The position numbers and the translations under genes are program-made. A stretch of 40,178 nucleotides of DNA. It comes from Candidatus Jordarchaeia archaeon. GTDB lineage: Archaea; Asgardarchaeota; Jordiarchaeia; Jordiarchaeales; Jordiarchaeaceae. Below, piece after piece: positions 15,330 through 36,434 of the stretch. Below the pieces are notes generated by a model. The model was not told the DNA's origin and did not search any database. It saw nothing but the letters and a program-made list of their open reading frames with translations. The DNA is taken from contig JAHAWU010000016.1 in NCBI GenBank assembly GCA_018383815.1, positions 1-40,178 of the forward strand. The letters run 5' to 3'. How positions within the stretch are numbered: position 1 is the stretch's first letter; the number at the start of each line of letters is the position of its first letter.

Positions 15330-16068
15330 AGTTAGAAATAACGGAGCCTTATTGGTACATACTCAGAGCCCAATAGATGATTTGATTGGAGGCGGCTTAC
15401 CTACGGGAGTGATTAGTCACATCTATGGGGAGGCGGCTACTGGTAAAACCACGCTTGCCATGCAGGCCGCAGGAAATCTTTCTCGGGAAGGATATCAGAC
15501 TCTTTACATTGATGGTGATAACAGGTTCTCACTCAAAAGGTTCTCGCAACTTTTCACAAACGAGGATTCACTGGAGAGAATAACCCTAATTGTTCCCAAG
15601 AGTTTAGATGAGCAAACCGAAATAATCAGTGTGCTGGACGCCTATGTTTCCAGTAGGACTAGATTGATAGTTGTAGACACTATTGCTTCCCAGTATAGGA
15701 GGGAATTGTCACCCGATACTCAGTTTTCCAGATATCGCGAAGTAGTGGAGAAACAGTTGCCGGAAATGCTTGGACTGTGTAGAAGGCGGAGAAACATAGC
15801 GGTGCTCATACTAAACCAAGTGGTAACAAGCATGGATGGGGAAGAGGGAGAAAATATTCCCTCAGCGGGAATGGGGCTAAACAAGTTCTCACAGGTTACC
15901 CTACGCTTTTCAACCACACCTGTGAAGTCGGTTCGTAAGGCTGAAATTATTAATCATTACTTGGGCATTAGGGGCGAGGTTTTTTATCAGATTACAAGTG
16001 AGGGAATAAGTCCAGTTAGATCCGATCTTTTAAAAGCGTTAAAGGAGGTTGGAAGCCGTGCTCCTTAA
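15307..16068 (+). CDS. radB: RadB-like recombinase paralog
   Basis: SPIDDLIGGGLPTGVISHIYGEAATGKTTLAMQAA, TLYIDGDNRFSLKRFSQL, LIVVDTIASQYRREL; short protein without the RadA N-terminal HhH domain. Confidence 0.85.
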   Translation: MVMLSSLRVRNNGALLVHTQSPIDDLIGGGLPTGVISHIYGEAATGKTTLAMQAAGNLSREGYQTLYIDGDNRFSLKRFSQLFTNEDSLERITLIVPKSLDEQTEIISVLDAYVSSRTRLIVVDTIASQYRRELSPDTQFSRYREVVEKQLPEMLGLCRRRRNIAVLILNQVVTSMDGEEGENIPSAGMGLNKFSQVTLRFSTTPVKSVRKAEIINHYLGIRGEVFYQITSEGISPVRSDLLKALKEVGSRAP

Positions 16069-17395: not shown

Positions 17396-17459
17396 AAATT
17401 CCTGTTGCCCAAAGAAACTGGTCTAACTGTTTCGCGGTTCGTTTTTGGAGGTGGTTTAA

Positions 17460-18425
17460 GTGGGTGTGAAGCTGGGTTCAATTGTTAGTTTCAAAGTTAT
17501 TTCTTTAAGTGAGCTGAAAAATGCGAGGGTAGCTGTGGATGCTTCTAATGTGCTGTTCCAGTTTTTAAATAAAATTAGAAGAAAGAATCTTCCCCTTTCC
17601 AACAGAGAAGGACGTATAACTTCCCACATTTATGGCGTATTCTATAGAACCATCAACTTGTTAGAACGAGATATTAAACCAATATACGTGTTTGACGGCC
17701 CGCACCCAAGGCTCAAGGGGAAAAGGGAACATCTGGTAGAATCCCTAGCCAGAGAGTACAGTTATCTGAGAAAGGCGCAGCGGAACAAGGAGTACACAAT
17801 CGCTAGAACCCTATCCTTATCTCCTGAGATACTCTATGATACAGTAATAGGTGAAACCCAAGAGCTCTTAACCTCCATGGGAATTCCTTGGATAAAGTCT
17901 CCGAGTGAGGGAGAAACGCAGGCGGCCTACTTAACGCGAATAGGCAAGGCGGATTATGTTCTCACTCAGGACTATGACGCTCTTCTTTTTGGAGCCAGAG
18001 CCGTTCTGAGAAACATGAATTTCAGCGAAAATAGTGTGGAGTGCAGCGCTCTGGAAGAGGTTCTAAAACAGAACAGTATAACATATGAACAACTCGTAGA
18101 TTTGGCAATCCTTGTGGGAACAGACTTCAACCCGGGAGTTAGGGGAATTGGCGCAAAAAAGGCCCTGAAGCTTGTTCAAAAATACAGAGACATTGAAAGC
18201 ACGTTTTCCGAGGGAATGTTAAAACCCTTCGATGTGCAACCCATTAGGGAAGCTTTTCTGAGACCCGAAGTCATCCAGCCCAAGATATTGTTTAATGCTC
18301 CCAACACTAACCAGTTAAAAAGAATATTGATGGATTTCGGGATGAAGCCTGACCGGATTGATAAGGGAATAAGGAGGCTGGTGAGGGCTTACAAGGGTTC
18401 GCAACTGGTACAATCAACACTCTAG
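17460..18425 (+). CDS. fen: Flap endonuclease 1 (XPG family)
   Basis: GTG start; VAVDASNVLFQFL, YVFDGPHPRLKGKR, SEGETQAAYL, TQDYDALLFGA, VGTDFNPGVRGIGAKKAL. Confidence 0.95.
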   Translation: MGVKLGSIVSFKVISLSELKNARVAVDASNVLFQFLNKIRRKNLPLSNREGRITSHIYGVFYRTINLLERDIKPIYVFDGPHPRLKGKREHLVESLAREYSYLRKAQRNKEYTIARTLSLSPEILYDTVIGETQELLTSMGIPWIKSPSEGETQAAYLTRIGKADYVLTQDYDALLFGARAVLRNMNFSENSVECSALEEVLKQNSITYEQLVDLAILVGTDFNPGVRGIGAKKALKLVQKYRDIESTFSEGMLKPFDVQPIREAFLRPEVIQPKILFNAPNTNQLKRILMDFGMKPDRIDKGIRRLVRAYKGSQLVQSTL

Positions 18426-18501
18426 CCCAAAAAGGTCACTCGATGTGTTTAAATTAAATGGTTAAAAAATATTTGGAGAAGTTTAAAGGAGTTAAGAAGA
18501 G

Positions 18502-19080
18502 ATGGATAAGTTTTCGCCGAACAACGGTGAGGATTGGTCTAACACCCAGGAAAAGGAAGAGGAAGACAGACTAAGGCATTTTTACTTGACCAATAAACTA
18601 TCAGACACCCTCGACAGCCTATTGGAAGCCTATAAGAGAATGCTGGGAAAAGGAGACATAGAAGGACTGTTGCTTGTGGACAGTGACGGAAAAGCCTTGG
18701 CGAAGTCTAGAAGTTTTAGAATAAAGAACGCTTGGAACGCGGGCGCCCTCGGCGCGGCTCTAGCAGGTGTAGCAAGACAGGTGGAAAAACATTTGGGCGC
18801 CGACGAGTTCCAGAACGCCATGGTCATGTACAAGTCAAAACAATTATACGTCTGCAAAATCAGCGACATCAACGAGGATAAATCACTTCTACTTTTAATC
18901 TTCGCCAATGAAAGAGCAAATATAGGATTTATCAGGGCAAAAATGAACCAGTATGTGAAGAGAATAGAGGAGGATATCAAGAACAACGAAACCATAAGGA
19001 AGACCATTGAGATAAGCGAGGAGCAAATAGAGGACATCCTAAACCGACTCGACGCCGCCGTAATAAGAGAGAAGGACTAA
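18502..19080 (+). CDS. Roadblock/LC7 (MglB-like) domain protein
   Basis: IEGLLLVDSDGKALAKSRSF...GALGAALAGVARQVEKHLG...LYVCKI...LLLLIFANERANIGFIRAKM. Confidence 0.75.
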   Translation: MDKFSPNNGEDWSNTQEKEEEDRLRHFYLTNKLSDTLDSLLEAYKRMLGKGDIEGLLLVDSDGKALAKSRSFRIKNAWNAGALGAALAGVARQVEKHLGADEFQNAMVMYKSKQLYVCKISDINEDKSLLLLIFANERANIGFIRAKMNQYVKRIEEDIKNNETIRKTIEISEEQIEDILNRLDAAVIREKD

Positions 19081-19096
19081 AAGGGAGAGAAACCTG

Positions 19097-19672
19097 TTGG
19101 AACAAGACAAGACACAAACCAATTTTAATGAGGGACTAATACAGGTGAAAATCGTCTTTTGGGGACCAGCATCCTCAGGCAAAACCACTAATCTAAGAGC
19201 CATAGCGAAACTCTTCCCCCAAAACATAACAGGTCAACCCTACGAAGTATCAACCAGCGAGGAGCGTACCATTTGGGAGGACTACTTAGCTTTCCAACTA
19301 GAATTTCCCCCATATAGCTTTCTATTCCACATCCACACCACTACTGGCCAAAAGAGGTTTCTGGCAACTAGAGAACAGGTGGCCAAAAACGCTGACGTTA
19401 TTCTTTTTGTCGCTGACTCGCAGGAACATAGGTTAAAGGATAACATAAGAAGCTACGAGGAGCTAGTAGCCTTCACAGAAAACAAGATCCCCATAGTGGT
19501 CGAGGCCAATAAGCAGGACTTACCCAATGCAGTAGCACCAGAAAAACTCAGGCAAGGTTTAGGACTGCCTAGCTCCATTCCGATTTATGGCGCATCAGCC
19601 GTAAAATGCAAGGGAGTGTACAAAGTTTTTAGGGACATGATACGTTTGGCTATTAGGAATCGGACCAGGTGA
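19097..19672 (+). CDS. MglA/Arf-like small GTPase
   Basis: VKIVFWGPASSGKTTNLRAI (P-loop), TTGQKRF (G3), VVEANKQDLPNA (G4), GASAVKCKGV (G5). Confidence 0.85.
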   Translation: MEQDKTQTNFNEGLIQVKIVFWGPASSGKTTNLRAIAKLFPQNITGQPYEVSTSEERTIWEDYLAFQLEFPPYSFLFHIHTTTGQKRFLATREQVAKNADVILFVADSQEHRLKDNIRSYEELVAFTENKIPIVVEANKQDLPNAVAPEKLRQGLGLPSSIPIYGASAVKCKGVYKVFRDMIRLAIRNRTR

Positions 19673-20388
19673 ATTATTTGAGGGGGCTCCTCAACTACTT
19701 CAGCGAAAAAGGCTTGGCAGTGCTGGGACAGCTTGTTTTCACACTTCGGCGGCCGGTGCTCTTGGTAGGTTTTCTCACCCGTGATGTTTTGAGGGAAGTG
19801 GCTATTTTTGCGCCCCATAGGAGATTATGGGAATCGGATCTGAACGTTTCAGAGGAGCCCGAGAGCGCCATAGAGGAGCTTAGAGCCCTCTTCGAAGAAG
19901 AGAAAAACAGCAAGTCCGAAAGAATATTGTACTTGGCTCCAAGTATTTCATCAGATTTCTTGGAAAACATGGTAGAGAATTTTGATACTGGATGGGTGGC
20001 TTCTTGTGCGTCCCTGCCCGACGTCAAAATACTTAACAAGCACAATGTGGCGGCCTACGATTTAAAAAACCAAGAATGGCTAAACGTAGATATTGTGAAA
20101 ACCCGCTGTTGGCTTATGGAAAACCTTCTCTCCGAGGCGTCCCGCTACAAGTCACGGGAAACTGTTCTTCGTGGAAAGCTGAGAATTTTAGCTGCGCAGG
20201 CTGAATTTTTCTGGGAACTTCTGGTTGGTGGTGTTACAAGCCCAGAAACTCTTTTTGATTTGGTAGGTTGCCGAGAAGCGGAGGACGCACAGATAATTTT
20301 GGCTCTGTGCAAGAAGGATTACCACCTGAACCCCATTAGCATTATTGATTCAGAAAAGCTAAAAGAAGCCGTTAAAAAGTTATTATGA
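19669..20388 (+). CDS. Uncharacterised protein translationally coupled to the MglA-like GTPase
   Basis: GTG start overlaps the GTPase stop (GTGA, 4 bp). Confidence 0.6.
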   Translation: MNYLRGLLNYFSEKGLAVLGQLVFTLRRPVLLVGFLTRDVLREVAIFAPHRRLWESDLNVSEEPESAIEELRALFEEEKNSKSERILYLAPSISSDFLENMVENFDTGWVASCASLPDVKILNKHNVAAYDLKNQEWLNVDIVKTRCWLMENLLSEASRYKSRETVLRGKLRILAAQAEFFWELLVGGVTSPETLFDLVGCREAEDAQIILALCKKDYHLNPISIIDSEKLKEAVKKLL

Positions 20389-20761
20389 ATTTGTTCAAAA
20401 ATGTGTAAATAGTTTTCACCCGCTCTCAGAAGACCCTTCTTGCCGCAGATCTTTTTACTCTGCATTTTTATTCCTTTTTTGGGACTATTTTTTTATTTGG
20501 GCGTAAAAGGTATTTCGTGCAAGCCGCTGCTGAAGGGCGTCTTCGGATGGGGCTTCGAGTTTGTTTTTGCATGTGTTTTTAGTCTCCCCATTTATTCCCC
20601 CCCTTTTTGGCAAAAGGAGCCTTCATAGGGCTTCTTTCCGATTGAAGCCTAACCCCTCTTCTAGGGAACCATTGTCTTGAAACACGCCCCGCCTCCCCAA
20701 AAAATGCACTAAAAACTTTTTATGCCCTCTTATTTTTTAGAAAATCTTATTTGCTGTAGGT

Positions 20762-20959
20762 TTGACACTCCCCACGGCTATAAGTTGGGGGATTCTTGGA
20801 AGCTTTTTAAGGCCTCCAATGGGTGTGCCACCACCCAGTTAACGTGCCCTCCATTAATAAACGGCACCTATTTAGCATTACATTTATTAACACATCGGCT
20901 TATAGGCTTTTTTGTCGATTCATCCCCCCGGAAGTCGGGGGCTTTCTCGCCAACGATTT
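20762..20959 (-). mobile_element. 198-bp non-autonomous (MITE-like) derivative of the IS200/IS605-type TnpB element
   Basis: First ~110 bp match the right end of the element at 27312; last ~50 bp match its left end; GTAA (TTAC on minus strand) flank at 20960-20963. Confidence 0.9.
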
Positions 20960-20979
20960 GTAAGACTTCTTGTTGAGGG

Positions 20980-22419
20980 ATGTTTTTGGGCGAGCTTGAG
21001 AATATCAAAAATTTTTTGGGAATGGAGCCCCTAAAAACGGTGGGAAACCCTGAATCACTCTCACTTGAGGAGCAGTTTCAATTGTTCTTACCGGACATAC
21101 TTCCCGAGGAGGAAAAGCAACTCCTGACAAGATTCTTCATATATAAGTATAAGGGGGAAATACCAGGCGGAAAGAAGGAGGAAAGATTCTCAGATTTAAT
21201 TAGGGCAGACACCATAATGGGTAAGGAATTCATACCCTCTGTGATTTCCACACTTAAACAGTTGGACAAGTATATGCGATTGGGCGGGGAAAATAGCCTA
21301 ACCTCTGAGCAGTTGAGGCAAATCTTGCAGGACATGGTTTATGATTACCGAGTTAAGCTTGATGCGAGGGATTTAAAGATTCTGGATAAAGTTAGGAGCA
21401 ACATATTTATTACAATAAAAGAGATAGCTGACGAGACAAATACCAGTTACACCACCATCCAACGCCGCAAAAAGATGCTTGAGGAACGGTGCCGCCTAGG
21501 AATATTTCCCAGAGTAAATTACCCCATAATAGGATTAACCAATATGCTTATTCTAGTGGAGGGGGAAGCCTACGTTGAAAGCCCCTATCTCCTTTCAAGA
21601 CAAGAACTCTACGGAGGAATCGACCTTTACACCTTCTTCTCCATTGCTGTACCCCCCAGAGCAGTTAACTTGGTTTACAAAGAATTTGAGAAGAGAGTTC
21701 CAAGATTCTGGACCTGGATAATCGATTCATTTGAGAGTTCTTTTTCTCTAGACTTCTACGATGTGGATGAAGGTAACTGGAAAATAGACTGGAAGGCCTG
21801 GTCTCTTTACCTCAGCAATGTGTTAAGCAAGGGTTGGGGTAAAGTTCTTTCCCCAGAAGAAATGGGCAAAAAACGTCCTCCAACCTCTCCACTTGGAAAA
21901 GTGAGAGGTGTAACCATTAAGGAATTGAAGTTAATCGACGCCTTATCCAAGAATTTCAATGCCACCGTGCAAGACTTGAGCCAAAATTTGGGATACAATG
22001 CCCGCACCATAATTAGGACCAGGGAGAACCTCCTGAAGAGGGGAACACTTCAGCTCGCATTGGGAATAGATCAAATAGGCCTAAATGAGCACATACTCTT
22101 CATAATCGAATCAGACCCAGACACACTCCACTCATTTGTAGTGGCTATAAAAAGACTTCCCAAAACTTGGATCTACTGGACGAGAACCTTAAATAAGGAG
22201 AATGCATTGGCCTGCTGGTTAGAAGCGCCTCTAGGCAGTATAACCCCACTTGAGAGAGCCATTCGCAGAACACTTCTCCCACTAGCGAAATATAAATTAT
22301 TTTTCAGAAGCCATCAAGAGGGCAGCCGAATACCACTACTTGAACTTTTTGACGCACAAACCAAAACTTGGAAATGGAGCCCCGAGATGCTAAAAATAAA
22401 TCTTGGAAAAACAGGATGA
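20980..22419 (+). CDS. Transcriptional regulator-like protein with two Lrp-like HTH/effector repeats
   Basis: LKILDKVRSNIFITIKEIADETNTSYTTIQRRKKML and LKLIDALSKNFNATVQDLSQNLGYNARTIIRTRENLLKRGTL. Confidence 0.7.
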   Translation: MFLGELENIKNFLGMEPLKTVGNPESLSLEEQFQLFLPDILPEEEKQLLTRFFIYKYKGEIPGGKKEERFSDLIRADTIMGKEFIPSVISTLKQLDKYMRLGGENSLTSEQLRQILQDMVYDYRVKLDARDLKILDKVRSNIFITIKEIADETNTSYTTIQRRKKMLEERCRLGIFPRVNYPIIGLTNMLILVEGEAYVESPYLLSRQELYGGIDLYTFFSIAVPPRAVNLVYKEFEKRVPRFWTWIIDSFESSFSLDFYDVDEGNWKIDWKAWSLYLSNVLSKGWGKVLSPEEMGKKRPPTSPLGKVRGVTIKELKLIDALSKNFNATVQDLSQNLGYNARTIIRTRENLLKRGTLQLALGIDQIGLNEHILFIIESDPDTLHSFVVAIKRLPKTWIYWTRTLNKENALACWLEAPLGSITPLERAIRRTLLPLAKYKLFFRSHQEGSRIPLLELFDAQTKTWKWSPEMLKINLGKTG

Positions 22420-22869
22420 GTATAGCCCGTAAAACTTTTTTTGAGAATAATGGGAGAGCGTATCAGGATAAGTCTCTTTTTGGGGATGTGTTTGGACATG
22501 TTTCCCATTTGTAGTTTTTGGGTTTTTCACTCATTTGAGTAAAGCTCATTTTTTGGGAAAATTTTTGGAGGGCTTGTGTAAATGCGTTTTATCCCTGGTG
22601 CAATTAATATATAAAAAAATATATGATTTTTGAACATTTTTTGCATCCCCTTTTTCCGACCGCCCAAAAACATCAACATTTGAAGCTTTTTAAAAACTGA
22701 GAAAAAAAGAAAAAGAAATTATTAACTCTCAAATCATTTTTCAAGGAAAAAGAAATTTGTAAACATACAAAAAACCCCAAAAATTCCTTGAAATACCCCC
22801 AAGAAGAGGCAGTGAAATCCTTTATATACTCAACACTTCATTTTTTGAAAACCAAAAAAAAGGAGAGTA

Positions 22870-25164
22870 ATAAAACTGAAGCAAAAAACACTCCTAACAC
22901 TGCTAATAATATCACTATTGGCTTTAACCGGATTCCTATTAATCTCAAACCAGCCCTTACCAAGCAACCTGAATCCCATATACCTTAGATTTAGCGGGAA
23001 CCCAACCACACAGAAGTCAAATTTACCCAACATACTATTAATCACCAGTCCAGCAAACAACTACTTTGATGATTGGCAAAGCGTTCTTCAACAAAAAGGT
23101 TTTACAGTAACCCAAGTCTACCTAGAAACACTCATTAACAATCCCACAATAGCCAATGTTTTCGATGTCCTAATTCTCGACACCTCCTGCACAAGCATAA
23201 ATCAGAGCGCATCTGAAATAATTGCGGGAACCAGCAAACCAGTACTTGCAGTGGGAAGCGCAGGCTACATGTTCCTGAACCATTTAGGTGCTCAGATTAC
23301 ACCTCGGGAAGTCGTCAACAAAACAGGAGTCCATGTGCTCAGCATTTCAACCAAGTATAACAATTGGGACGTCCACTACCATATAGTCTACCAGTATCCT
23401 CAATATGTGAATTACAGCATCAGTCTCCTATATGGGGAGATTACTCAAAGATACATTCTCTTACCACTTAGTGGGGATAACCTTACCTTAACCAACTCCC
23501 CCAAACTCATTCCCCTAGCGAAGGATCTCACCCAATACGACGACTACTTTCTTAGCATCTACAACCAATACGGGGATAATCCTCAACTGTTGCACTGGGC
23601 GCTACACAACATAACAACCATAAATCAAAACCCCTACGGAAACAGCCTCATGCAAACTCTGACAAACACCCTAATCTGGCTACACAACAAAAACCCCTAC
23701 AGCGTACAGATTTTGCCAAACCTTTACAAATACAATGCTTCGGAAACAGTGAATATCAGCATCTCGGCAATCAGCAACTTCAACTTAACCAGTTATGGAG
23801 GAATAACTCTCAACATTACAGTAGTTGACGACAGCCAAAACATAGTGCACACAGACCAATTAGTCACAAGTAGCAGCGGGCCAGTTTACACTTCTTTCCA
23901 AATACCGCAAATTTCAGGTCCCAGCTACACCATAAACGCTACTGATGGACAGATATTCTTCATTGAACCCTTCACAGTTCAACCCACTGATTACCGAATA
24001 ACTGAATTCACAGCTACCCCCAGCACCATTTACCTAGGTGAAGGCGTGGTTCTTCTAAACTCCTGCGTAACTGTAGAGGGCAACGCAGCTTCAAATATAT
24101 TAGTTCGGTGGAGTGTAATAAACAAGTTAGAGTATCCCAACGCATCCTTCACCAGTAATCCCGACTTGTACACTCTGGTAGGATACGTTTTTACCAATAG
24201 TTCGGGCTACGCTGCCTCTCAGTGGTTCCCCCAAAAAGTGGGTGTTTATGAAGTAGTAGCGTGGATTAGAGACTACAATGGGTTACCCAAGAACTGGACC
24301 AGCACTCAAGTCACCGTAAAGATTAAGGCAGGTCTCTCAGTAAATCTCACGGGCATAGGCGGAGGCCTAATCTATGTAGGGGACACAGTTACCGTTGAGG
24401 GACAGCTGACACTTAATTATCAGCCTCCCCAAGAAGTTGTAAGTATAAATGTAACCATCTATGACCCCAACAGTCACCCCGTAAGCTACATTATATACAC
24501 CAGTAGCTCGGGCCAGTTTTTCCTCAACTGGACTCCAAGCACCAAGGGGATTTATACCTTATTCTGCACCTACGCAGGCAACATAACCGTGGACTCAGTG
24601 ACTAGAGGCCTGGAGTTCGCAGTCCACCTATTGATGCCCGGGCTTGAAACCGACGCCAAAAATGGGCAGGTTATGCTGGGAAGCGCCCTCCAAATTACGG
24701 CAAACTTCAGCAAGCTGAGTTTCACGCCCCAGCTCCAAGACCCAGTAACCCTAATGGTAATAGATTTAGCTGGAGAGTTAGTCTACTCAGAGGAGTACAG
24801 GGTGAACAATACTGAATACTTCCGAGTACAGTGGACGCCCCAAAGTCTGGGCGAATACACAGTACTCCTTCTTTTCAACCAATCCTACACTGTTGTCTCC
24901 ACCAGCAAAACAATTAGTGTGATAACTCAGGGAGAAGACTATAACTCAGAGCCCCAAGTGCTACTCGGCCTCTCTTTGGGAAGCTCTAACCAGAGCGGAA
25001 GCAACACTACGCCTATTGTTCTTGCAATGAGTGGCTCCGGTTTGGTGGGAAGCGTAATACTTTTCGCACGTTTAAGGAAAAGCAGAGAAATCATTTACAA
25101 AAATTCTGAGGGCGACTTATACGGTCCAAGAGAAAAAGGGGAGGGACAAGAAGACGAAGACTAA
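22870..25164 (+). CDS. Secreted/cell-surface protein: signal peptide, GATase-like region, Ig-like repeats, C-terminal TM
   Basis: Supplied ORF begins at TTG 22918, but the frame is open upstream to a TGA at 22846 and encodes (I)KLKQKTLLTLLIISLLALTGFLLI after AAGGAG; C-terminal VLAMSGSGLVGSVILFARLRKSRE. Confidence 0.7.
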   Translation: MKLKQKTLLTLLIISLLALTGFLLISNQPLPSNLNPIYLRFSGNPTTQKSNLPNILLITSPANNYFDDWQSVLQQKGFTVTQVYLETLINNPTIANVFDVLILDTSCTSINQSASEIIAGTSKPVLAVGSAGYMFLNHLGAQITPREVVNKTGVHVLSISTKYNNWDVHYHIVYQYPQYVNYSISLLYGEITQRYILLPLSGDNLTLTNSPKLIPLAKDLTQYDDYFLSIYNQYGDNPQLLHWALHNITTINQNPYGNSLMQTLTNTLIWLHNKNPYSVQILPNLYKYNASETVNISISAISNFNLTSYGGITLNITVVDDSQNIVHTDQLVTSSSGPVYTSFQIPQISGPSYTINATDGQIFFIEPFTVQPTDYRITEFTATPSTIYLGEGVVLLNSCVTVEGNAASNILVRWSVINKLEYPNASFTSNPDLYTLVGYVFTNSSGYAASQWFPQKVGVYEVVAWIRDYNGLPKNWTSTQVTVKIKAGLSVNLTGIGGGLIYVGDTVTVEGQLTLNYQPPQEVVSINVTIYDPNSHPVSYIIYTSSSGQFFLNWTPSTKGIYTLFCTYAGNITVDSVTRGLEFAVHLLMPGLETDAKNGQVMLGSALQITANFSKLSFTPQLQDPVTLMVIDLAGELVYSEEYRVNNTEYFRVQWTPQSLGEYTVLLLFNQSYTVVSTSKTISVITQGEDYNSEPQVLLGLSLGSSNQSGSNTTPIVLAMSGSGLVGSVILFARLRKSREIIYKNSEGDLYGPREKGEGQEDED

Positions 25165-25352
25165 ATCAGAGCCCATAAGCGCAGGCTTTCCCAACATTTC
25201 CTTTCCGGAAAACCCAAATCCAACTCCACCGGAGAAGAGAGAAATCATGAATAATTGCGGAATAAAATCCCACATCGGTCCCTCTTCTAAACACATGGCA
25301 GAAACTCTGAGAGTGCCCACTCAGAAACTGGTCTAATTGGAGGATTAGGTAA

Positions 25353-26270
25353 ATGTTTGAAAGCTTCTTATCCAACATCGCATCAATTCTGCAATCAGTC
25401 TTAGTGATAGTAATAATACTTGTCTTAGGCTACATTTTTTGTCTATGCCTCCTCTGGGTTAGGCATGATTTCCTGCTTTACTATATGCTCAGAGATCAGA
25501 CACGTTTGGTGCGCTGGCTTATAAACAATACAATAAATTTCTATAAAAAGCACTGGAGGTTCGCCCTAGGAGTATTCTTTTTCTTCACAATTTACACGCT
25601 GTTTTACAGCGCCCTTCCCGGCTGGACAGAAACACACACAACACAAAGGCTTCTTATAAGCCTATACGCTTCAACCATGACAACAGCCACCGTGGCCACA
25701 CTGGTCAAAAGAAAAATGAAATGGGCCCTAAGATTAACACCCACATCAACAATATCCATCACTGCAATACTTGCATACTATCTCCTCACCGAAGGCTCTT
25801 ATCCCATACCACAATATACGCAAACCCCCGCCCCAGAACTGGTAGCTCTAGTCTTAATTCCTTCAATAATCACCATCGCAGCATTCAAAAAAATACGCCA
25901 ACAAATAAAATATCAACAAAAACAATTATACCCGAACCCACAAGACGCAATTCACAACAATCAAGTTAACCCTAAACACAGTCCCAGAAACAGCAGTTAC
26001 CCTGCCAACCACAAAGAAGATGCCTACAAAAAAGCATACTTCGCAGGAAGAAACAAAATACCCACAAAAATAGAGAAAGCCTACCTAACAAATATCCACA
26101 CAAAACCCAACCACCGCAGCGGCAGAAGCAAACTAACAATCGAAGCGGAACCCCAAGATATCCTCCGAATCCAAGAGGACGAAGAGCTGAGACAACTTAT
26201 AGACATAGATAAAGAAGGGAGTAAAAAAGGCGCAGAAGACATTTTTGAGGAAGAAGAAAACGAAGAATGA
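25353..26270 (+). CDS. Membrane protein with long hydrophilic Q/N/K-rich C-terminal tail
   Basis: TM segments in the first ~170 aa (VIVIILVLGYIFCLCLLWV, WRFALGVFFFFTIYTLFY); ATG preceded by GGAGGA. Confidence 0.65.
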   Translation: MFESFLSNIASILQSVLVIVIILVLGYIFCLCLLWVRHDFLLYYMLRDQTRLVRWLINNTINFYKKHWRFALGVFFFFTIYTLFYSALPGWTETHTTQRLLISLYASTMTTATVATLVKRKMKWALRLTPTSTISITAILAYYLLTEGSYPIPQYTQTPAPELVALVLIPSIITIAAFKKIRQQIKYQQKQLYPNPQDAIHNNQVNPKHSPRNSSYPANHKEDAYKKAYFAGRNKIPTKIEKAYLTNIHTKPNHRSGRSKLTIEAEPQDILRIQEDEELRQLIDIDKEGSKKGAEDIFEEEENEE

Positions 26271-26300
26271 AAACCAAAAAACCTTGAGGGGAACCGAAAA

Positions 26301-26653
26301 ATGAAAACTGAAACAATCGTCGATAAAAAAGCGGAATCCAAAAAAGTGGGGGCTCCAAAAAAATCTCTACAATACAGTGAGTGCTGGAGAAACTTGGTTG
26401 AAAGCTTAATCCAAGCATTAAATGACGAAAACCCCTTAGTGCGTTGGGCCGCAGCAGGAGCCCTAGGAGAGTTAGCGGACACTAGAGCATTAACCCCACT
26501 AAAAAAGCCCTAAACGATAAAGACATAAAAGTTCAAAGAAAAGCAGCTTGGGCTCTAAGAAAAATGGGGCACAAACCCAACACAAAAATCCAGCCACAAC
26601 ACAAAAACAAAACTCCAAGCCCCCACCAAAAAGCACACATCCAAAGGGTATGA
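26301..26653 (+). CDS. HEAT/PBS-lyase repeat protein, split by a -1 frame change at 26501-26507
   Basis: LIQALNDENPLVRWAAAGALGELADTRALTPLKK then, in the -1 frame, ALNDKDIKVQRKAAWALRKMG...; 0-frame stop TAA at 26511-26513, -1-frame stop TGA at 26651-26653. Confidence 0.65.
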
Positions 26654-26749
26654 TGAACAATCAAAAACCAAAAATTTGAGCCAAAAATAAACCCCAAATT
26701 TTTTTAATCCATTTATTAAAAAACGCCGCACATCACCATTTGGACTAAA

Positions 26750-26920
26750 AACACGTATACGTTTTTATGCGTCTTAGACATAAATATAAAAAATGTTTTT
26801 CATGGCAAACGTTCATACGCTTCGCGTTTTAGACAAACCAACATACGCTGAAAGCATTTCAGATAAAGGTATGAAAATGTTTTTCATGGCAAAGTATGAA
26901 AAAGTTTTTCATGGCAAAAT
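26750..26920 (+). repeat. Degenerate short tandem repeats containing palindromic ATGAAAAA-N-TTTTTCAT
   Basis: AAAA(T/A)GTTTTTCATGGCAAA occurs three times (about 26790-26809, 26874-26893, 26898-26917). Confidence 0.7.
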
Positions 26921-27176
26921 TATAGGATAGAGAGAAACCGAGCATAGACGAACTCATTTTCCCTTCAGGAGTTGTGGTCTTTATAAGTCCAAAACATACA
27001 AAATAAGTCACCGGATCAAGTGAACAAGCCAACATACAAAAGCTCCACAATAGGGGTTCATATGTTGTGGAGAAAAGCCATAATGCAAAACACCTCCCAA
27101 ATAATTTACAATCCAAATGGGGAAAGCCTCCTATATGAAATATGCAGATGGTGCACTTGGTACTAAAAATTAAATG

Positions 27177-28534
27177 CTAAAACCTTTTTCGGCGCCCACA
27201 CCAAAACCCCTTCATAAAAAATGCCCCAACTGTGGATGCCCCACTACAGTAATCTATGACGAAATAATCTACGCATGCGGAGTGTGCGGAAGAATACTCG
27301 TAGAAAAATACTTGACACTCCCCACGACTGAAGTCAGGGGATTCTTGGAAGCTCATATTTAAAGCCTCCAATGGGTGTGCCACCGCCCAGTTAACGTGCC
27401 CTCCATTATGGACGGCACCTATGTTCAATGCCCCTACCACGTCTCGGTGCGCCTCAACTCCGCATTGTTTACACTTAAATAGTCTGCCCCGCTTCGTCAC
27501 TTCACTGCTCCCACACCAAGGGCACCGGCTTGAGGTCCCACGCTCGTCCACCACCTCGACCCTAATACCGTACTCCTCGGAAACCTCTCGGATACGCTTC
27601 AGGAGGTAGTGGTGGCTCCAGAAATTGTTCACCATGGTGTTTGATTTTCGGCTGCCATTGACGTTTGCCCGAATGTTCTTGAGGTTTCCGACTACAATCT
27701 TTGAAACCCCTTCCCTCCATAGCCGCTCAACCGCCCTCCGCACCACGCCTTTTATGTGCTGTCTGAATCTTAGCGTGCGCCGCCTGAACAAGCCACGGAT
27801 TCTCTTCGTACTACGCTTGCCGTTGGTGTTTGCCGCTATCTTTTTCAGCCGGTCTATCTTGTGTGAGAGATACCACCAATCTGCAAGTGCTGGTCTTCCG
27901 CTGTATGCAAGCACCTGCCTTTTCCCATCCACGGCCACCGTGAGTAGCTCAAGCACAAAGTCCACATAGGCCCTCTTGCTTGAGAGCGGTTGATGGGGAG
28001 GCTTAACCTCCACCGATTGTTGGGCGTACCACTTGTTTTTGTTTTGGTCGTAGGTGAGGGTGAGCAGGCCCTGCCTGTTCCAACTTTTCCACCGGGGCTT
28101 GCCCCTCCACTTCACTTTGAGCTTCTTGGGGAGCCTCAATACCCCCTTTTCTAGCTGGTAGCAGTCGCATCTTATGGGAATCAGGAGCCTGCGCTTTCCG
28201 TTCTCCCGGTTCTTCCAGTAGCTTGGCGGTGCGACCTTTTGGATGTGTGGAGGGAGTTTTCCCTGCGCCTTTAGTTTAAGTAGGGCGAAGAACGACTTCC
28301 AGGCCTCGTTGTTCTTCCTTATTATCTGCTGGGCGGTTGCGGAGCCCACTACACCCTTATACTTATCGTAGAGGTCTTGGCTCCCCCAGTTGATTTTCCC
28401 CTAAAGAAGGTTTGTCTGCGGCGATAGTTGAGTTCATTCCACAGTCGGGCGCAGGCATCCGCGACCTCCAACAGTTGCTGGTGCTGCTTCTTCGTCGGGG
28501 CGAGTGTGAACGTGTTTGTGCGCTTCATTTCCAC
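27177..28534 (-). CDS. tnpB: TnpB RNA-guided nuclease homologue, split by a -1 frame change at 28394-28400
   Basis: N-part (28534-28349) TNTFTLAPTKKQHQQLLEVADACARLWNELNYRRRQTFFRGK; C-part (28349-27177) GSATAQQIIRKNNEAWKSFF...DERGTSSRCPWCGSSEVTKRGRLFKCKQCGVEAHRDVVGALNIG. Frame runs past the element end at 27312 into host DNA. Confidence 0.9.
27312..27440 (-). ncRNA. Candidate omega/reRNA scaffold at the element right end
   Basis: Right-end region overlapping tnpB 3' end is also retained in the 198-bp derivative; location matches known TnpB reRNAs. No expression evidence. Confidence 0.35.
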
Positions 28535-29037
28535 ATCCTCGATTGCCTCTCAATACCTTTCTTAATGGTTTCACTCGACATTTTCCCCGCTGTGGAGACG
28601 AAGTTTGTCCAAAGTGGCGGGTTCTTTTAGGCAAATGGGGGAATTCCCATCTTAGGTGGTGGGGTGGGCGACCCTTTTTTTGGAGCGACTTGGCGGGTTT
28701 GTGGGCTGGGGGCTGGGGATGTTGTGGAAACGGATGGGTGCAAGGTGGTTGGGTGGGTTGCGCTTCTTTCTTGTGCCGTGATTTCCACGTCCTTCTCCTT
28801 TTGCTACTTCTCTTATAGGTTTTGCTCCGGCCGCCTTTTTACCTTGTTTATGAGGGCTGGTTTTCTACGCTTGGGGGCACCAGAAGAGGTGGTAGTTGGT
28901 GAGATGGACCTGTTTTCGGGAATGCTTGTATTCCCTCTGTTAACGCAATTTATCTATCAATACACTCGCTTATTAAACTTTTTTTGGCGATTCACCCCTC
29001 ACGACTAATAGGTCGGGGGCTTTCTCGCCAATGATTT
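27312..29037 (-). mobile_element. IS200/IS605 superfamily element carrying TnpB only (IS1341-like organisation, IS608-like TTAC/TCAA ends)
   Basis: Minus strand: TTAC|AAATCATTGGCGAGAAAGCCCCCGACC...TnpB...TGGGGAGTGTCAA| ; terminal hairpins; two shorter homologous copies in the window; no tnpA-like ORF seen. Confidence 0.9.
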
Positions 29038-29302
29038 GTAATATCGCTCAACAGTTCAAAAAAGGTATGTAACGTGGAGTACGCATACGAATGTTACCAC
29101 TGCGCAAACACCTCAAAAATCACAGCCCTACACATATGTGGCGACGGAAAACTTGGTGAATGCGACGCTCTCTTTTTAAACGAAACAGGGGAACCCCTAG
29201 CGTTCGGATGCATAAGATGCCACAAAAAACAAACACAACAGCTTAACAAAAAACAAATATAGGAACAGCCAAATCAAAAAAGGGCCTCAAAAAATCACAG
29301 TT

Positions 29303-29839
29303 TTAGGCAGGCTGCTTCTTCTTAGCCAACTCGTACACAAGTTGGGCAATCTTCTCAAAAGCCTCATTCACACCAAAACCAGACTTCGCACTAGTTTCAA
29401 AATATGGTGCGTCGCCCAACTTGGCTGCCAAAACACTACCCATCTCAGGACTAATCTTACGCTGATCGTTCAAATCCACCTTATTCGCAAGCAAAACCTT
29501 TGGAATCTGACCACAAATATTAGTCAATTCCCTATCCCAATTAAGAACATTATCATAACTATCAGTACGACTCACGTCGTAAACATACATTGCGCCCATA
29601 GCGCCCTTATAGAACAAAACCCGGACATCACTAAAATGCGGCTGCCCCGCCAAATCCCAAATCTGTAACTTAACAGGCTTATCCTCAATAACCAAACTTT
29701 TAACAGCAAAATTCGAACCTATAGTCATAATGTAGTCTGTTCTAAAGGAGCCTTCTGTCCACTGTTTTATGAGTGAAGTTTTTCCTACTGCTCCGTCGCC
29801 CACTACGACTATTTTGAAAACGAATCCTAGGCTTTTCAT
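29303..29839 (-). CDS. Ras/Rab-like small GTPase
   Basis: FKIVVVGDGAVGKTSLIKQW, WDLAGQPHF, LLANKVDL, ETSAKSGFGV. Confidence 0.93.
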   Translation of the reverse strand: MKSLGFVFKIVVVGDGAVGKTSLIKQWTEGSFRTDYIMTIGSNFAVKSLVIEDKPVKLQIWDLAGQPHFSDVRVLFYKGAMGAMYVYDVSRTDSYDNVLNWDRELTNICGQIPKVLLANKVDLNDQRKISPEMGSVLAAKLGDAPYFETSAKSGFGVNEAFEKIAQLVYELAKKKQPA

Positions 29840-30081
29840 TTGCTTTCCTCCGGTCTGAGTCTAATAATAGACTCTCTGTTTAGCTATTTTTATTTTTTGC
29901 TCACATATGTTGGAAAAAGTTTTTGTTGTTTAACCATTTGTGTTTGCCTGTAAATATAGATTTCTTGTACATTTTGCGGCTTTTTTGGGGATAGACTTTT
30001 TTTGGTTTGTTTTCCCATTTGTTTATCGATAGGTCTATAAGTTTCTTATATAATTTTGTTTTTGTGTTGGTTGGTGGTTTT

Positions 30082-30564
30082 ATGGCGCGTAAACCTTTGG
30101 GTGTTCAAATTCTGTCGGTTTCTATTTTGTTGGCTTCTTTGGTTTTTTTGGTTTTGGGCTATTATTTCTATAGGCTTTTTGCTCCTTCTTATAATTTGTT
30201 TGCGCCTTTTCCCGGTGTTCCCCAGTTGTACTGGTTGCCTTTGTTTTTTGTTTCTTTTGGAGTTTTAGGTTTGGTGGTGGGTTTGGGATTTTGGGGCGTT
30301 AGACGGTGGGCTTATCTTTTGACTGTTGGGTTTTGTGTGGTGTTTATTGGTTTTGGGGTTTTCTTTGTGGGTTTGGGTTTATTGGTTTTGGGGTTTTTAG
30401 ATGTTTTTTCGGTGGAATTGTTTAGTGTTTCGGCTTTTTTGGTTTTGGGTGTTACGGGGAGGTTCTTTGCTTCTTTGATGCTGGGGGCAGGCTTAGTTTT
30501 TATTGTGTTGAGTGTGGTTGTTTTGAGATATCTTACTGGTGAGGTGAAGTATGTTTTTTATTGA
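30082..30564 (+). CDS. Small multi-pass membrane protein
   Basis: ATG-initiated MARKPLGVQILSVSILLASLVFLVLGYYF with about four hydrophobic segments. GT-rich DNA can create artefactual hydrophobic ORFs, so confidence is moderate. Confidence 0.5.
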   Translation: MARKPLGVQILSVSILLASLVFLVLGYYFYRLFAPSYNLFAPFPGVPQLYWLPLFFVSFGVLGLVVGLGFWGVRRWAYLLTVGFCVVFIGFGVFFVGLGLLVLGFLDVFSVELFSVSAFLVLGVTGRFFASLMLGAGLVFIVLSVVVLRYLTGEVKYVFY

Positions 30565-30767
30565 AGGCATTAGTTGAAATTTTTGGCGTGTTTTATAGTT
30601 AACTTTTTGGGGTTTGGATTTTTGTGGTTCGGTAATATTTTTTCTGGGGTGAATCTTCTTTAGGTCTTTGTTTTTAGGTTTTAGGCTCATTTTTTTAATT
30701 TTTTTAATGCAAAACGCTTATATTGTATAAAGATATTTTGGGAATTCATTGTTGACTTCATGTTAGT

Positions 30768-31754
30768 ATGTTGATTTACAATACTGTTGGTGTCTTTGAA
30801 GGTTTGGTGTTGTTTGTGGTGTCTGTTGAAAGTGGATTTGTTCGTCGGTGGGTTGAGGTTAGTGATTTAAGAAGGGGACAGATTTTTGTTTTTCTAACCA
30901 GTATGGCTTGGGGTTCGTCTTTTGTTGTTATAAGGTGGGGTGTGGATTTTCTTAACCCGTTTGTGTATTTGTTTTTCCGTTTTGTGGTGGCTTCTGTGGT
31001 TACTTTGCCTTTTCTTAGATGGGTGGGCGCTGGTGGGCTTAGAGAGCTGTTTTTTGATAGGAGGGTGGTTTTTGTGGGTTTGATTAATACTTTAGCGTTT
31101 TTCTGCGAGTTTGTGGGTATGGAGTATACTACTGCGGGAATTTCGGCTTTGTTGACGAATGTGAATGTGGTTATCATTGCCTTTTTAGCTTACTTCTTTC
31201 TGGGTGAGGATATGGGGAGGAAGAAAATTGTTGCTTTGGCTTTGAGCGTTTTGGGAGTTTTTTTGATAGCGGTGAATGGGGATCTTGCGAATCTCCAGGG
31301 TGGAGAGTTTCTGGGAAACTTTTTGATACTAGTTTCGGGGGCTCTGTGGGCGATTTACATAGTGCTCATGAAGGTCATTGTGGATAACAAGTCGCATAGA
31401 CATGGCGAGGTGAATTCCATGAATCTTACCTATGCGGTCACCTTGATGACGATGATTTTCTCCCTGTTTCCTGTTCTAATTTATGGATTTGAGGATTTTT
31501 CTCTGATATCTCAGGTGGCCACGGTTCCCGCTCTTATGGGAATTTTGTATATGGGGTTTGTGTGCACCACGCTGGCCTATTTCCTGTACTTTGAGGGATT
31601 GAAGCGTGTTAGTGCTTCAGTTTCTGGTCTGTACCTACTTTTACAAATTATTTTTGCGGTGGGCTTGGGATTTTTGCTCCTAGGAGAGGTTCCCACAATT
31701 CACACCCTTATAGGCGGTGCTTTGATAGGGGTTTCAATTTACTTGGTTTCTTGA
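30768..31754 (+). CDS. EamA/DMT-family transporter (copy 1)
   Basis: Ten-TM pattern, GSSFVVIRWGVDFLNPFVYLFFRFVVASVVTLPF...TTAGISALLTNVNVVIIAFLAYFFLGED. Start may lie downstream of 30768. Confidence 0.85.
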   Translation: MLIYNTVGVFEGLVLFVVSVESGFVRRWVEVSDLRRGQIFVFLTSMAWGSSFVVIRWGVDFLNPFVYLFFRFVVASVVTLPFLRWVGAGGLRELFFDRRVVFVGLINTLAFFCEFVGMEYTTAGISALLTNVNVVIIAFLAYFFLGEDMGRKKIVALALSVLGVFLIAVNGDLANLQGGEFLGNFLILVSGALWAIYIVLMKVIVDNKSHRHGEVNSMNLTYAVTLMTMIFSLFPVLIYGFEDFSLISQVATVPALMGILYMGFVCTTLAYFLYFEGLKRVSASVSGLYLLLQIIFAVGLGFLLLGEVPTIHTLIGGALIGVSIYLVS

Positions 31755-32024
31755 GTTTGTGCCATAGTTTTTTCATAAAAATTGGGGGTTTGTCATTTAA
31801 AAACTGTAGAGATAGATAGGTATTTCAAAATTTGACCTTTTTTATGTGTATTGCCTCTAACTTTTTTAAACCCACGTTTTGTCTATTTTTTTAATAAAAT
31901 TTATGCTTTTTATCTTATTTTTTTAGGCGAAATATTTATATTACCTAATTATCTTATACAACAAATTGGCGACGTCGTGTTGACGGAGTGAATTCAGAGA
32001 TGTTAAGTAAAGGAGGGTTAAACC

Positions 32025-32963
32025 TTGAAAGCCATTCCTGTGGAAGTAGGACACCAACTCGTCAGAGCAAACACCTTGAGAAGGGGCCAACTCTTCATCA
32101 TCGTCGCCAGCACCATCTGGGGCTCTTCATTTGTATTTATTAAGTGGGGAGTGGAATTCCTTAATCCATTCATTTATCTGTTTTTCCGATTCCTCGTAGC
32201 CGCAATCGTAACCTTGCCCATTATGAGATTTGTAAGATCTAGAGAACTCGCACATTACTTGTTGGATAGAAGAGTAATTTTGGTGGGTCTAATTAATACT
32301 TTGGCGTTTTTCTGCGAATTTGTGGGAATAGAGTATACTACTGCGGGAATGGCGGCTATATTAACTAATGTCCAAGTGGTCTTTGTGGCGCTTTTGGCGT
32401 ATATTTTCCTAGGGGAACAGATGGATAAGCGGAAAACCGTGGCCTTAACCGCGAGTGTTTTGGGCGTGCTTCTCATCGCCATAAATGGGGATCCTTCAAA
32501 CTTGCAGGGAGGCCAGCTTCTAGGCAACCTATTGATACTGGTTTCGGGAATTCTGTGGGCGGTTTACATAGTTGCTTCAAAGTTTGTTTTGGAGAACAAT
32601 TCTGGAAAATATTTTGAAGTAAACTCAATGGAGCTTACATACGCAGTGACCATTCTCACCATGATGTTTTCACTGCCTCCAGCATTAATCTATGGATTCA
32701 CTGACTTTTCTTCAATGCTGGATGTTGCAACAGCTCCCGCAATCATTGGAATCCTATACATGGGATTCATGTGCACCACGCTGGCCTATTTCCTGTACTT
32801 TGAGGGACTAAAGAGGGTAACCGCTTCTGCATCAGCAATATATTTGATTTTGCAAACTGTCTTTGCGGTTCTCCTAGCCTTCTTATTCCTAGGGGAGATT
32901 CCGACGCTCTACACATTATCGGGTGGAATACTAATAGGAGCTTCTATATACCTAGTTTCCTAA
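32025..32963 (+). CDS. EamA/DMT-family transporter (copy 2)
   Basis: Same motifs as copy 1; SD AGGAGG and TATA-like AATATTTATATTA upstream near 31931. Confidence 0.88.
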   Translation: MKAIPVEVGHQLVRANTLRRGQLFIIVASTIWGSSFVFIKWGVEFLNPFIYLFFRFLVAAIVTLPIMRFVRSRELAHYLLDRRVILVGLINTLAFFCEFVGIEYTTAGMAAILTNVQVVFVALLAYIFLGEQMDKRKTVALTASVLGVLLIAINGDPSNLQGGQLLGNLLILVSGILWAVYIVASKFVLENNSGKYFEVNSMELTYAVTILTMMFSLPPALIYGFTDFSSMLDVATAPAIIGILYMGFMCTTLAYFLYFEGLKRVTASASAIYLILQTVFAVLLAFLFLGEIPTLYTLSGGILIGASIYLVS

Positions 32964-32983
32964 GTTGAAGATTTAAAAATGTT

Positions 32984-34240
32984 TTACACGCTCAGCTTTT
33001 TGGCGGGTTTGACTATGTATTCGCAGTACTCGTCGCCCTTAGCCAAACACTTCACTTCTTGAGCATCGTATTCTCTTCCCGTGTATTTTTCCACTGTGCC
33101 AGCTATGATGCCTGCTATTGAAACACCGGCGGGTTTACCCAAGTCTTTGAGTTGGCTGCAAATGAGATTATCGAACACTTTGAATCTGAGAAATCCTTCA
33201 TCGGGGTTAAACTCCACCATTTCAAAGTCTCCAAGCCCTCTGAGAGTCAAGATCTTAAAGTAGTAGGTGAGGATGTCTTTTAGGTCGGAGAGCTTGAATT
33301 CTTTCACTAAGGGGTAAAAGAATGAGGATCCCCTTTCCTTCTCCAGAGAGTAAATTAGTTGGTAGATGTTTTCGTATCCATAAATTTTGAATAGGTTCTC
33401 AAGTATAAAGGAGAGGTAGTCTCCACCTAAAAGGACGATTCTGTTGCCCATCAGGTCAACATAGCCTTGCTTAACCATTTTTAATTGCTGCTTGAAAGGT
33501 TCAAAATCTTCGATTAGACCTGTTCTTATAACGATTTTTTCGGGTGTTTTTTCGTATGGTGCATAGGCGTCTATGTGGCGGGGAAGCGGTGACTTTTTTA
33601 CTCGGAGATATTTCTGGAATCTTCCGTCTATTTGTTCTATTTTGAAATCTATTACGAAATCGAAAATGTGTTCTAACGTGTTTATGGTTTTGGTTTCCAG
33701 CATTCCCTTGTCAAAAACATAAATAGCGGATCCATACTGAGCTATGTACATTCTTTGCTTGTAAATCAGGTTTATGATTTTCTGTACTTCAGCCTTGGCC
33801 AGAAAAACGTTTGAAAAAAAGAAGACGCTAAAAATTTGGTTTTTGAATTTATCAATTTGAGTTAGAAGCTTTAGAAAGAAAGCATCAATATGAATAGGGT
33901 CTCTTGGCTCACTAATTAGCACTTTCTCCTTCGATTCAATGTCCCCAAACATTTTTGTGAAACCATCTATCAGTAGGAAAAGATCTTTTTCCTCGTATTG
34001 CTCATAATTCCACCCAAACCAATCAAACCACTCTCTTATCCTCTCGGGAGGCAGGTCTAAATCGAAGATAAAGCCGAAGTCCCCATGACACAATCGATAG
34101 TAAAGAATTTGAAGGGCTAAAACTTCAGCCATAGAACCAGTTTCAGTTAAAAACAAGATAGGAGCATTTCTGTAGAAGCCCCCTCCTAACAGAGTGTCCA
34201 ACTCACTAATTCCAGAAGTAATTAAATCCATAATAAACAC
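32984..34240 (-). CDS. KaiC-like protein with degenerate P-loop fused to a C-terminal V4R domain
   Basis: LITSGISELDTLLGGGFYRNAPILFLTETGSMAEVLALQI (Walker A lost); C-terminal GREYDAQEVKCLAKGDEYCEYIVKP typical of V4R. Confidence 0.75.
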   Translation of the reverse strand: MFIMDLITSGISELDTLLGGGFYRNAPILFLTETGSMAEVLALQILYYRLCHGDFGFIFDLDLPPERIREWFDWFGWNYEQYEEKDLFLLIDGFTKMFGDIESKEKVLISEPRDPIHIDAFFLKLLTQIDKFKNQIFSVFFFSNVFLAKAEVQKIINLIYKQRMYIAQYGSAIYVFDKGMLETKTINTLEHIFDFVIDFKIEQIDGRFQKYLRVKKSPLPRHIDAYAPYEKTPEKIVIRTGLIEDFEPFKQQLKMVKQGYVDLMGNRIVLLGGDYLSFILENLFKIYGYENIYQLIYSLEKERGSSFFYPLVKEFKLSDLKDILTYYFKILTLRGLGDFEMVEFNPDEGFLRFKVFDNLICSQLKDLGKPAGVSIAGIIAGTVEKYTGREYDAQEVKCLAKGDEYCEYIVKPAKKLSV

Positions 34241-34571
34241 TCCTAGTAAACGTATGTACCTCTCACGCCCACCAGTCGCCGTTTACAATTCCAAATGGTG
34301 ATGCGAATATCCCTGATTTTATTCGAGGAACAATGATAGAAACTAGAGCGTGTCTAATCAAAGATATAATTTGGAAAATTAATATATTTTTTCCATTTCT
34401 CATAAATAGGATTCATGAATTAAACTCGTTTGTAAAACTGGTTTTTCATAGTTAATTTTATCAGTCCACAGATGAAAATATGTAGCTCACACTTTTGGTG
34501 GTTCGCCCAAAAAAATTATAATGGCGTTTGTGGGTACAATATTTTTAATTGGTTTTTGATAGACGTATGAG

Positions 34572-35672
34572 GTGGAATTATTGAAGGCGCTTCTTTGGGA
34601 TGGTGGAGCATTCCCTGAGGGGTTTCACTTAGAAGATGTTGAAAAACCAGTGCCTAAAAGGAACTGGGTTTGCATTAAAACCAAACTGTGTGGCATATGT
34701 GGCTCGGACATTGGGGTTATAAGTGGAAGAATGCCGCTCCTTGCAGATTTTCTGGTGAAGCCAACCATTCTTGGCCATGAAGCGTTAGGAGTCATAAGTG
34801 AAGTTGGGGAGGGTGTGGTTGACTTTGAAGTGGGGGATAGAGTAGTTTGTGAGGGATTAGGAGGCTGTGCCGAGCTGGGTGTGGCTCCCTGTAAGATGTG
34901 CCAGATTGGCCGATACAATCTCTGCTTAAATATTGCTAAGGCGGGCAGCGGTGTGGGAGCAAGTCAAGCGAACGGTGGAGGGTTTGCAGAATACTTCTTA
35001 GCTCATAAGTCAAAGATTTACAAAGTTCCTGACAGTATAACCGACGAGGAGGCTGTTCTGACGGAGCCTCTCAGTGTAGCGGTTCATTCTTGCCTCATTG
35101 GCAATCCTTCGGGAAAAAGGGTGGCCATTATTGGTGCTGGAGCTATTGGATTGCAGCTTCTCCAGGTTTGCAAAGTTATGGGGGCAAGGGAAATTTTTGT
35201 GATAAGTAAGTATGATTTTCAGGCCAGGTTGGCGGAGAGGCTAGGTGCGGATAGGGTGTACTGCTTGGAGAGAAATCAGATTCCAGTTTTGGAGATAGCT
35301 TTGGAAACCGGTGAGGGGGTAGATCAGTGCTACGAAGCTGTGGGAAGTGAACAAACGCTTCAGGATGCTATCGCAGTGACGAGGCAGGGAGGAGAAATTA
35401 TATTCGTGGGAGTGATGGGGCAAGCAAGAATTGACTTTGTCATGTTTAGTGCTAAGGAACTCAAGCTACATGGTACCTGGTATTATGCTAATGAGCCGCA
35501 AGTAGCCAGAACTTCTACAGATGTGGCATTAGACCTATTGAGGAGGGGCAAGGTTAACAATAGACCACTGCTCACAAAGACCTATAGGTTAGAAGAGTGG
35601 AGAGAAGCTTTTGAGGCGCAGATTAATAAGAAAAAGTATGAATCAACAAAAATAGCTTTCAGATATGATTAA
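34572..35672 (+). CDS. Zinc-dependent MDR-family alcohol/sugar dehydrogenase
   Basis: CGICGSDIGV, GHEALGVISEVGEGVVDFEVGDRVV, Cys cluster CAELGVAPCKMCQIGRYNLC, Rossmann VAIIGAGAIGLQLLQV. Confidence 0.92.
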   Translation: MELLKALLWDGGAFPEGFHLEDVEKPVPKRNWVCIKTKLCGICGSDIGVISGRMPLLADFLVKPTILGHEALGVISEVGEGVVDFEVGDRVVCEGLGGCAELGVAPCKMCQIGRYNLCLNIAKAGSGVGASQANGGGFAEYFLAHKSKIYKVPDSITDEEAVLTEPLSVAVHSCLIGNPSGKRVAIIGAGAIGLQLLQVCKVMGAREIFVISKYDFQARLAERLGADRVYCLERNQIPVLEIALETGEGVDQCYEAVGSEQTLQDAIAVTRQGGEIIFVGVMGQARIDFVMFSAKELKLHGTWYYANEPQVARTSTDVALDLLRRGKVNNRPLLTKTYRLEEWREAFEAQINKKKYESTKIAFRYD

Positions 35673-35800
35673 GCCTTTTTTTCAAGACGCACAGGAATCT
35701 AATTGTTGATACTTGTAATGCTTAAGTAATCTTCCGAAACATAAATAAAAGAAGATGTTCAAAATCAACTGTAGAAAGATTTGTTGGAGATTTAGTTTCG

Positions 35801-36196
35801 ATGAGTAAAGATAAGCAAGAGTTCCCCTTGGATTTCATGTTGAGGACTAAGAAGTTTGAGAGTAAGGGAGAAGTTGAAGAATTTGTGGAAACGCCCGAAA
35901 GGCGGAAGAAGCGTCTCCTTTTACTGGTGCGTTCAGGTATATTTCACTTTTTGGAGGAGTTGGTGAGGGAGCAAAAAAATCTGGGAATAACTGATGATGA
36001 AATAAGGGAGAACGTTTATGTGGGAATAGAGATGAGGAAACACAAGGTGCATGAGCTTCACAATCCTAATCCCATATTTGAAAAGGCGGCTGAGGAGTAC
36101 TCTAAGCTGCAGGCAAGATTAGCACAGCTCTCTCCCCAAGAAATATTGGAAGAGAACAAAAGGATTATTCTAAAATTTGCTCCCCCGAAAAAGTGA
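35801..36196 (+). CDS. Uncharacterised helical protein, about 131 aa
   Basis: ORF with plausible coding composition; no family recognised. Confidence 0.5.
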   Translation: MSKDKQEFPLDFMLRTKKFESKGEVEEFVETPERRKKRLLLLVRSGIFHFLEELVREQKNLGITDDEIRENVYVGIEMRKHKVHELHNPNPIFEKAAEEYSKLQARLAQLSPQEILEENKRIILKFAPPKK

Positions 36197-36434
36197 AGCC
36201 CCATAAATAATGGACAGTTAACTTCTATTAACACAACTAAATTTAATTCTTCTTTCTTAGTTCATTAATTGCAGGCTCCAAAAATATTTTAATGCGTTTT
36301 GTCCTACTTTTTTGAAACATTAATGTAAAAATAAATTTAAATGGGTAAGAAAACATTATACTATATAACGTCAAAAATTTGGGCAAGGTCACTGGGTTAA
36401 ACAACGGTAGGGGGCAATAAAGCAACGGAAGGCT

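Follow-up and report, generated by a model that had tools for sequence, protein, structure and literature searches.

Within the IS200/IS605 family, TnpA normally excises elements precisely. For ISDra2, an reRNA that carries a guide derived from the flank has been described together with TnpB (PMC8612924). Haloquadratum walsbyi harbors PATEs, short, transposase-free palindrome-associated elements whose ends are those of an IS605-type element and which are repeated in the genome (PMC3119063). The locus analysed here is located on contig C141 of a 3.79-Mb genome assembly (G000) from a Candidatus Jordarchaeia archaeon, and the window is the whole 40,178-nucleotide stretch of this contig. Because the source is a MAG-like draft assembly (95.6% completeness, 5% contamination), assembly errors could account for single-base indels in the tnpB or the gene relic described below. 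The locus very probably represents a tnpB-only IS200/IS605 insertion, without target duplication, beside TTAC in a copy of a lineage-specific multi-Cys-pair gene that is degenerate apart from the insertion. The find is mostly an ordinary tnpB-only insertion, with an interesting host and a dispensable gene copy.

The element occupies positions 27312-29037 on the minus strand (1726 bp) and has a GC content of 52.5%, that of the window being 42.7%. Deletion of this interval in silico joined the flanks in frame, yielding a 363-nt ORF of 120 aa and the junction ...GAAAAATAC|GTAATATCGCTC..., which contains a single GTAA (TTAC on the minus strand). The joined 120-aa sequence and the single-TTAC junction were identical to those of the initial annotation. 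The empty-site allele that the annotation had proposed to look for in related genomes was found in the congener G003 (Ca. Jordarchaeia RPF2, an Asgard archaeon). Synteny between the window and contig C90 of G003 extends to both sides of the insertion, at approximately 90-92% identity over 15698-26341 and 29193-36360, and is anchored by a Ras-family small GTPase gene (29303-29839, minus strand) with 92% identity in G003. At this locus, G003 carries GAAAAATACGTAATATCGCTCAACAGTTC uninterrupted, and both flanks align. Indeed, the 29-nt junction pattern matched C90 with 0 mismatches, and this was its sole occurrence among four congeneric genomes, even when three mismatches were allowed. The in-frame joining is not due to chance.

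The target tetranucleotide TTAC, recognized from the sequence and from the miniature copies of the element, adjoins the left end at 29038-29041 (minus strand; GTAA on the plus strand). Within the window, 0.35% of positions carry GTAA, whereas all 11 complete miniature copies abut GTAA/TTAC. The exact empty junction, present in G003:C90 only, leaves no reasonable doubt about the boundaries and the TTAC target, and the 11 miniature copies have the same ends; the boundaries originally proposed are thus correct. A precise empty site and the lack of a target duplication at TTAC are as in the IS200/IS605 family. Separately, window positions 26271-27050 were approximately 57-59% identical to G003, the flanks being otherwise approximately 91% identical. 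Short motifs (ATGAAAA..GTTTTTCATGGCAAA) are repeated in this stretch, one miniature element (L033) contains a similar motif, and the stretch is possibly another repeat family.

On the minus strand, the element is arranged as left end (LE), tnpB, and right end (RE). Both LE (28951-29037, minus strand) and RE (27312-27422, minus strand) contain imperfect subterminal palindromes, as judged from the end sequences and, for the RE terminal hairpin, from a consensus RNA fold built from 13 sequences. The LE hairpin is common to the miniature copies. RE, with the subterminal hairpin CCCCTGACTTCAGTCGTGGGG, is a 111-bp module that is retained in the miniature copies and is the presumed omega-RNA scaffold. 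The RE fold contained no compensatory pair among the copies, which are too alike for covariation to be informative and probably descend from one deletion ancestor, and an Rfam search with the element RNA gave no match up to E = 1.

The element's TnpB scored 129.8 bits against the NCBIfam model guided_TnpB (NF040570; cut-off 100) and exceeded the cut-offs of Pfam Cas12f1-like_TNB and OrfB_IS605. The C-terminal part of tnpB (27417-28352, minus strand) corresponds to guided_TnpB positions 71-387, over the cut-off, and the N-terminal part (28349-28534, minus strand) to positions 2-42. The two parts lie in different frames, and tnpB is, on this reading of the sequence, frameshifted. In an alignment with solved TnpB/Cas12f-type proteins, the position of the RuvC-II Glu reads Gly (VVGNL). 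Since tnpB is frameshifted, the window TnpB copy is probably inactive, and RNA-guided nuclease activity is probably absent from it. The element contains no tnpA, as expected for the tnpB-only type. The one Y1-type tnpA found in the same genome is a pseudogene with three stops, intact copies occurring in G003, and a working tyrosine HUH TnpA that could act in trans was not found in the draft genome. This absence is relevant to present mobility, not to descent: the element copy would be immobile unless a tnpA escaped detection. Based on the frameshifted tnpB and the decayed tnpA, the copy is probably inert now.

The same genome contains many transposase-free derivatives of the element, including at least 11 complete miniature copies with both element ends. 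The miniature copies are located on contigs C178, C37, C176, C13, C124 (two), C141, C105, C65, C84, and C128, among others. The complete copies are 198-393 bp long and consist of the 111-bp RE module and an LE of approximately 87 bp, some with added sequence between or inside these parts; terminal-only units of approximately 48 bp also occur. Like the window element, 11 of 11 complete copies adjoin TTAC. The copy in the window (20762-20959, minus strand) comprises RE and LE only (198 bp), adjoins TTAC, and is absent from G003. Searches of the congeners for the end modules returned isolated matches only, so the expansion looks specific to the window's lineage. Similarly to PATEs, these copies are short, transposase-free, and repeated in the genome, and they have the ends of an IS605-type element.

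A search with the joined protein identified an uninterrupted homologue in the same genome (contig C126, 59% identity) and further ones in each of the three congeners. The joined protein aligns with the intact homologues over EKY|VISLN, where the stretch is continuous; none of the homologues, which the initial annotation had proposed to search for, ends at the insertion point. The intact protein is about 152-159 aa long (nine intact homologues, ~152 aa) and contains several Cys pairs: CxWC; CPxCxC with CxVC; ECxxCGN with HLCGDG; and CIxCxK. A profile search of 231 genomes of the phylum recovered intact copies in this genus and in one MAG with 9% contamination, classified outside it, only, and the family is apparently confined to one Jordarchaeia genus. 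A MAG titled Candidatus Sigynarchaeota (SQRJ_179), probably this contaminated one (G187), contains three intact copies (L075, L077, and L078), one of them in the same gene context as in Jordarchaeia, which suggests chimeric binning. Family copies, both intact and relic, are frequently no more than a few kb away from a Ras-type GTPase gene (the window/L080, L071, and L078) or from proteins with weak longin matches (L074-L076 and L077). This proximity was noted post hoc, with only 24 Ras-type genes found in 3.79 Mb.

The initial annotation had described the protein as TFB-like with a zinc ribbon. The Cys-rich family is real but could not be shown to be TFB-like. On the relic, the Pfam TFIIB zinc ribbon model reached 14.7 bits (cut-off 29); it gave no match to either of the two intact homologues scanned. 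The family resembles the archaeal TFB ribbon in its CPxC...CxxC spacing. In contrast to TFB, it has further Cys pairs and lacks the two cyclin-like folds that follow the ribbon, the proteins being ~152 aa and all-beta in a low-confidence AlphaFold model (mean pLDDT 61). TFB membership was rejected on the sub-threshold Pfam score. Searches of Pfam, NCBIfam, and the PDB with the family proteins gave no significant match. A fold search with the model likewise returned no PDB match at E < 0.001; matches to MCM, none of them below this value, were not considered meaningful.

Comparison with the intact homologues showed that the relic of the host gene starts at 27062 rather than 27174 and that homology extends to about 29235; the ORF originally listed covers only part of the relic. 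The N-terminal third, which the initial annotation did not see, lies in the ancestral frame at 27062-27217 (plus strand) and matched positions 2-50 of an hmmsearch profile built from the nine intact homologues (E = 1.6e-16). A whole-genome search with the profile also recovered it, at 27068-27232. The ancestral frame contains an in-frame TAA at 27164-27166 (plus strand) where the intact homologues and G003 have CAG or CAA. A codon-level alignment with seven intact homologues placed a +1 frameshift at approximately 27206-27215 (plus strand), between the N-terminal part and the frame of the 120-aa ORF. The first half of this ORF (27174-27311, plus strand) is truly homologous only from ~27210 (family positions 49-80), and the second half (29038-29262, plus strand) is homologous to ~29235 (positions 80-148), its tail being frameshifted. 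Thus, the ORF covers family positions 49-148 only, with its first ~13 and last ~10 residues out of frame. All Cys of the stretch are retained in the window copy, and the ORF is still open. The suggestion that the joined ORF is the intact protein is not supported, the homologues being ~152 aa with an additional N-terminal CxWC module and the ORF being frameshifted at its ends. Recoding would not rescue this stop, which is TAA: UGA is the codon reportedly read as Sec in Jordarchaeia, and Pyl (UAG) is confined to Sifarchaeia (PMC9723677).

The G003 relic, which either never carried the element or retains no sign of it, is independently wrecked. Specifically, its coding sequence is distributed among three frames and three Cys codons are gone; it also contains a 5-bp deletion and a different insertion of 311 bp, and it reads TTG where the window ORF has ATG (27174). 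The ~311-bp insertion (L062:8589-8897, G003:C90) has no relation to the TnpB element; segments of it are found again, with approximately 81% identity, at other loci of the genus (L081 and L103), which probably makes it a further mobile repeat. The two relics differ by 2, 6, and 7 substitutions at codon positions 1, 2, and 3, respectively, whereas eight neighbouring genes show a third-position excess; a synonymous/non-synonymous count on the relic has too few changes to carry weight by itself. Based on the stop, the frameshifts, the wrecked G003 allele, and the lack of a third-position concentration, the host gene copy is best described as a decaying paralogue.

The order of the lesions bears on whether the gene copy was functional in the common ancestor, with the insertion as the first lesion in the window lineage and the stop and frameshifts following later. 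We consider this order unlikely, although some data favour it. The TAA is private to the window, and a 5′ frameshift common to both genomes was rejected because different bases seem to have been gained (an extra T versus an extra A); the two 5′ frameshifts thus appear independent. Further, the divergence of the relics is similar to that of intergenic DNA, so decay could be recent. However, in the G003 lineage the gene decayed even though the element is absent, which indicates low constraint on the copy, and the C-terminal -1 shift looks common to the window and the element-free G003 and hence older than the insertion. A truncated protein may have been translated from the ATG at 27174 before the insertion.

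Far less probable is a reversible switch, in which the 120-aa ORF would be a real gene, shortened recently, that worked up to the insertion and could be restored by precise excision. The 120 codons left open by virtual excision, the ATG start, the retention of all Cys in the modules covered, and the precise excision usual for TnpA of this family are consistent with such a gene. Nevertheless, the ORF is without the N-terminal module that bears the invariant C27, W29, and C30, and its out-of-frame ends misread conserved residues that are encoded in another frame. Moreover, the ortholog has a TTG start and is wrecked, and the genome yielded no intact tnpA. That the insertion boundary is coincidental, or that the two ORFs are separate genes, found no evidence in its favour, has virtually no chance of being correct and is refuted by the exact uninterrupted G003 junction and the continuous homologues. 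Our preferred reading is that the element resides in a decaying gene copy, where it is not the only lesion and does not act as a reversible switch. The initial annotation had cast the element as the inactivator, or as a reversible interruption, of the gene. Neither role was borne out: the element-free G003 allele is also destroyed, the window copy has the TAA and frameshifts besides the insertion, and excision leaves these in place.

For a tnpB-only insertion into a decaying gene copy, TnpA supplied in trans would have moved the element as single-stranded DNA and inserted it 3′ of TTAC. The omega-RNA ending at RE would take the adjoining flank (GTATTTTTCTACGAG...) as its guide. This would-be guide (GTATTTTTCTACGAGTATTC; 27292-27311, minus strand), assigned from its position 3′ of RE, matches the empty site adjoining TTAC. 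An active TnpB with the right-flank guide would cut restored empty sites, which would favour retention of the element. The insertion would have been tolerated, the host gene being dispensable and decaying. It is conceivable, though doubtful, that the miniature copies of ~200 bp act as guide-RNA-only elements. Each would combine an RE scaffold with a guide from its own flank, and a TnpB acting in trans could then protect all of them simultaneously.

The locus provides a clean example of a TnpB-type insertion in an Asgard archaeon for which a congener supplies the empty allele. This allele fixes the ends, target, and guide position of the element exactly and makes the miniature family easy to annotate. 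A reading frame opened by virtual excision need not correspond to an intact gene. The intact copies of the multi-Cys-pair family could be used to study this uncharacterised protein.

Compared with ISDra2 and IS608 of the IS200/IS605 family, and with its IS1341-type, tnpB-only elements, the window element is alike in its subterminal hairpins at LE and RE and in its fixed short target without duplication. It further shares with the family a TnpB over the NCBIfam cut-off and a conserved module that overlaps the tnpB 3′ end and RE and is followed by the flank, in the guide position. Unlike ISDra2 and IS608, it has no tnpA, its tnpB is apparently frameshifted with Gly at the aligned RuvC-II Glu, and its host is an Asgard archaeon. 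Finally, the miniature copies match the description of the PATEs (PMC3119063) but occur in a different archaeal lineage, and those of ~200 bp keep the same 111-bp RE module.
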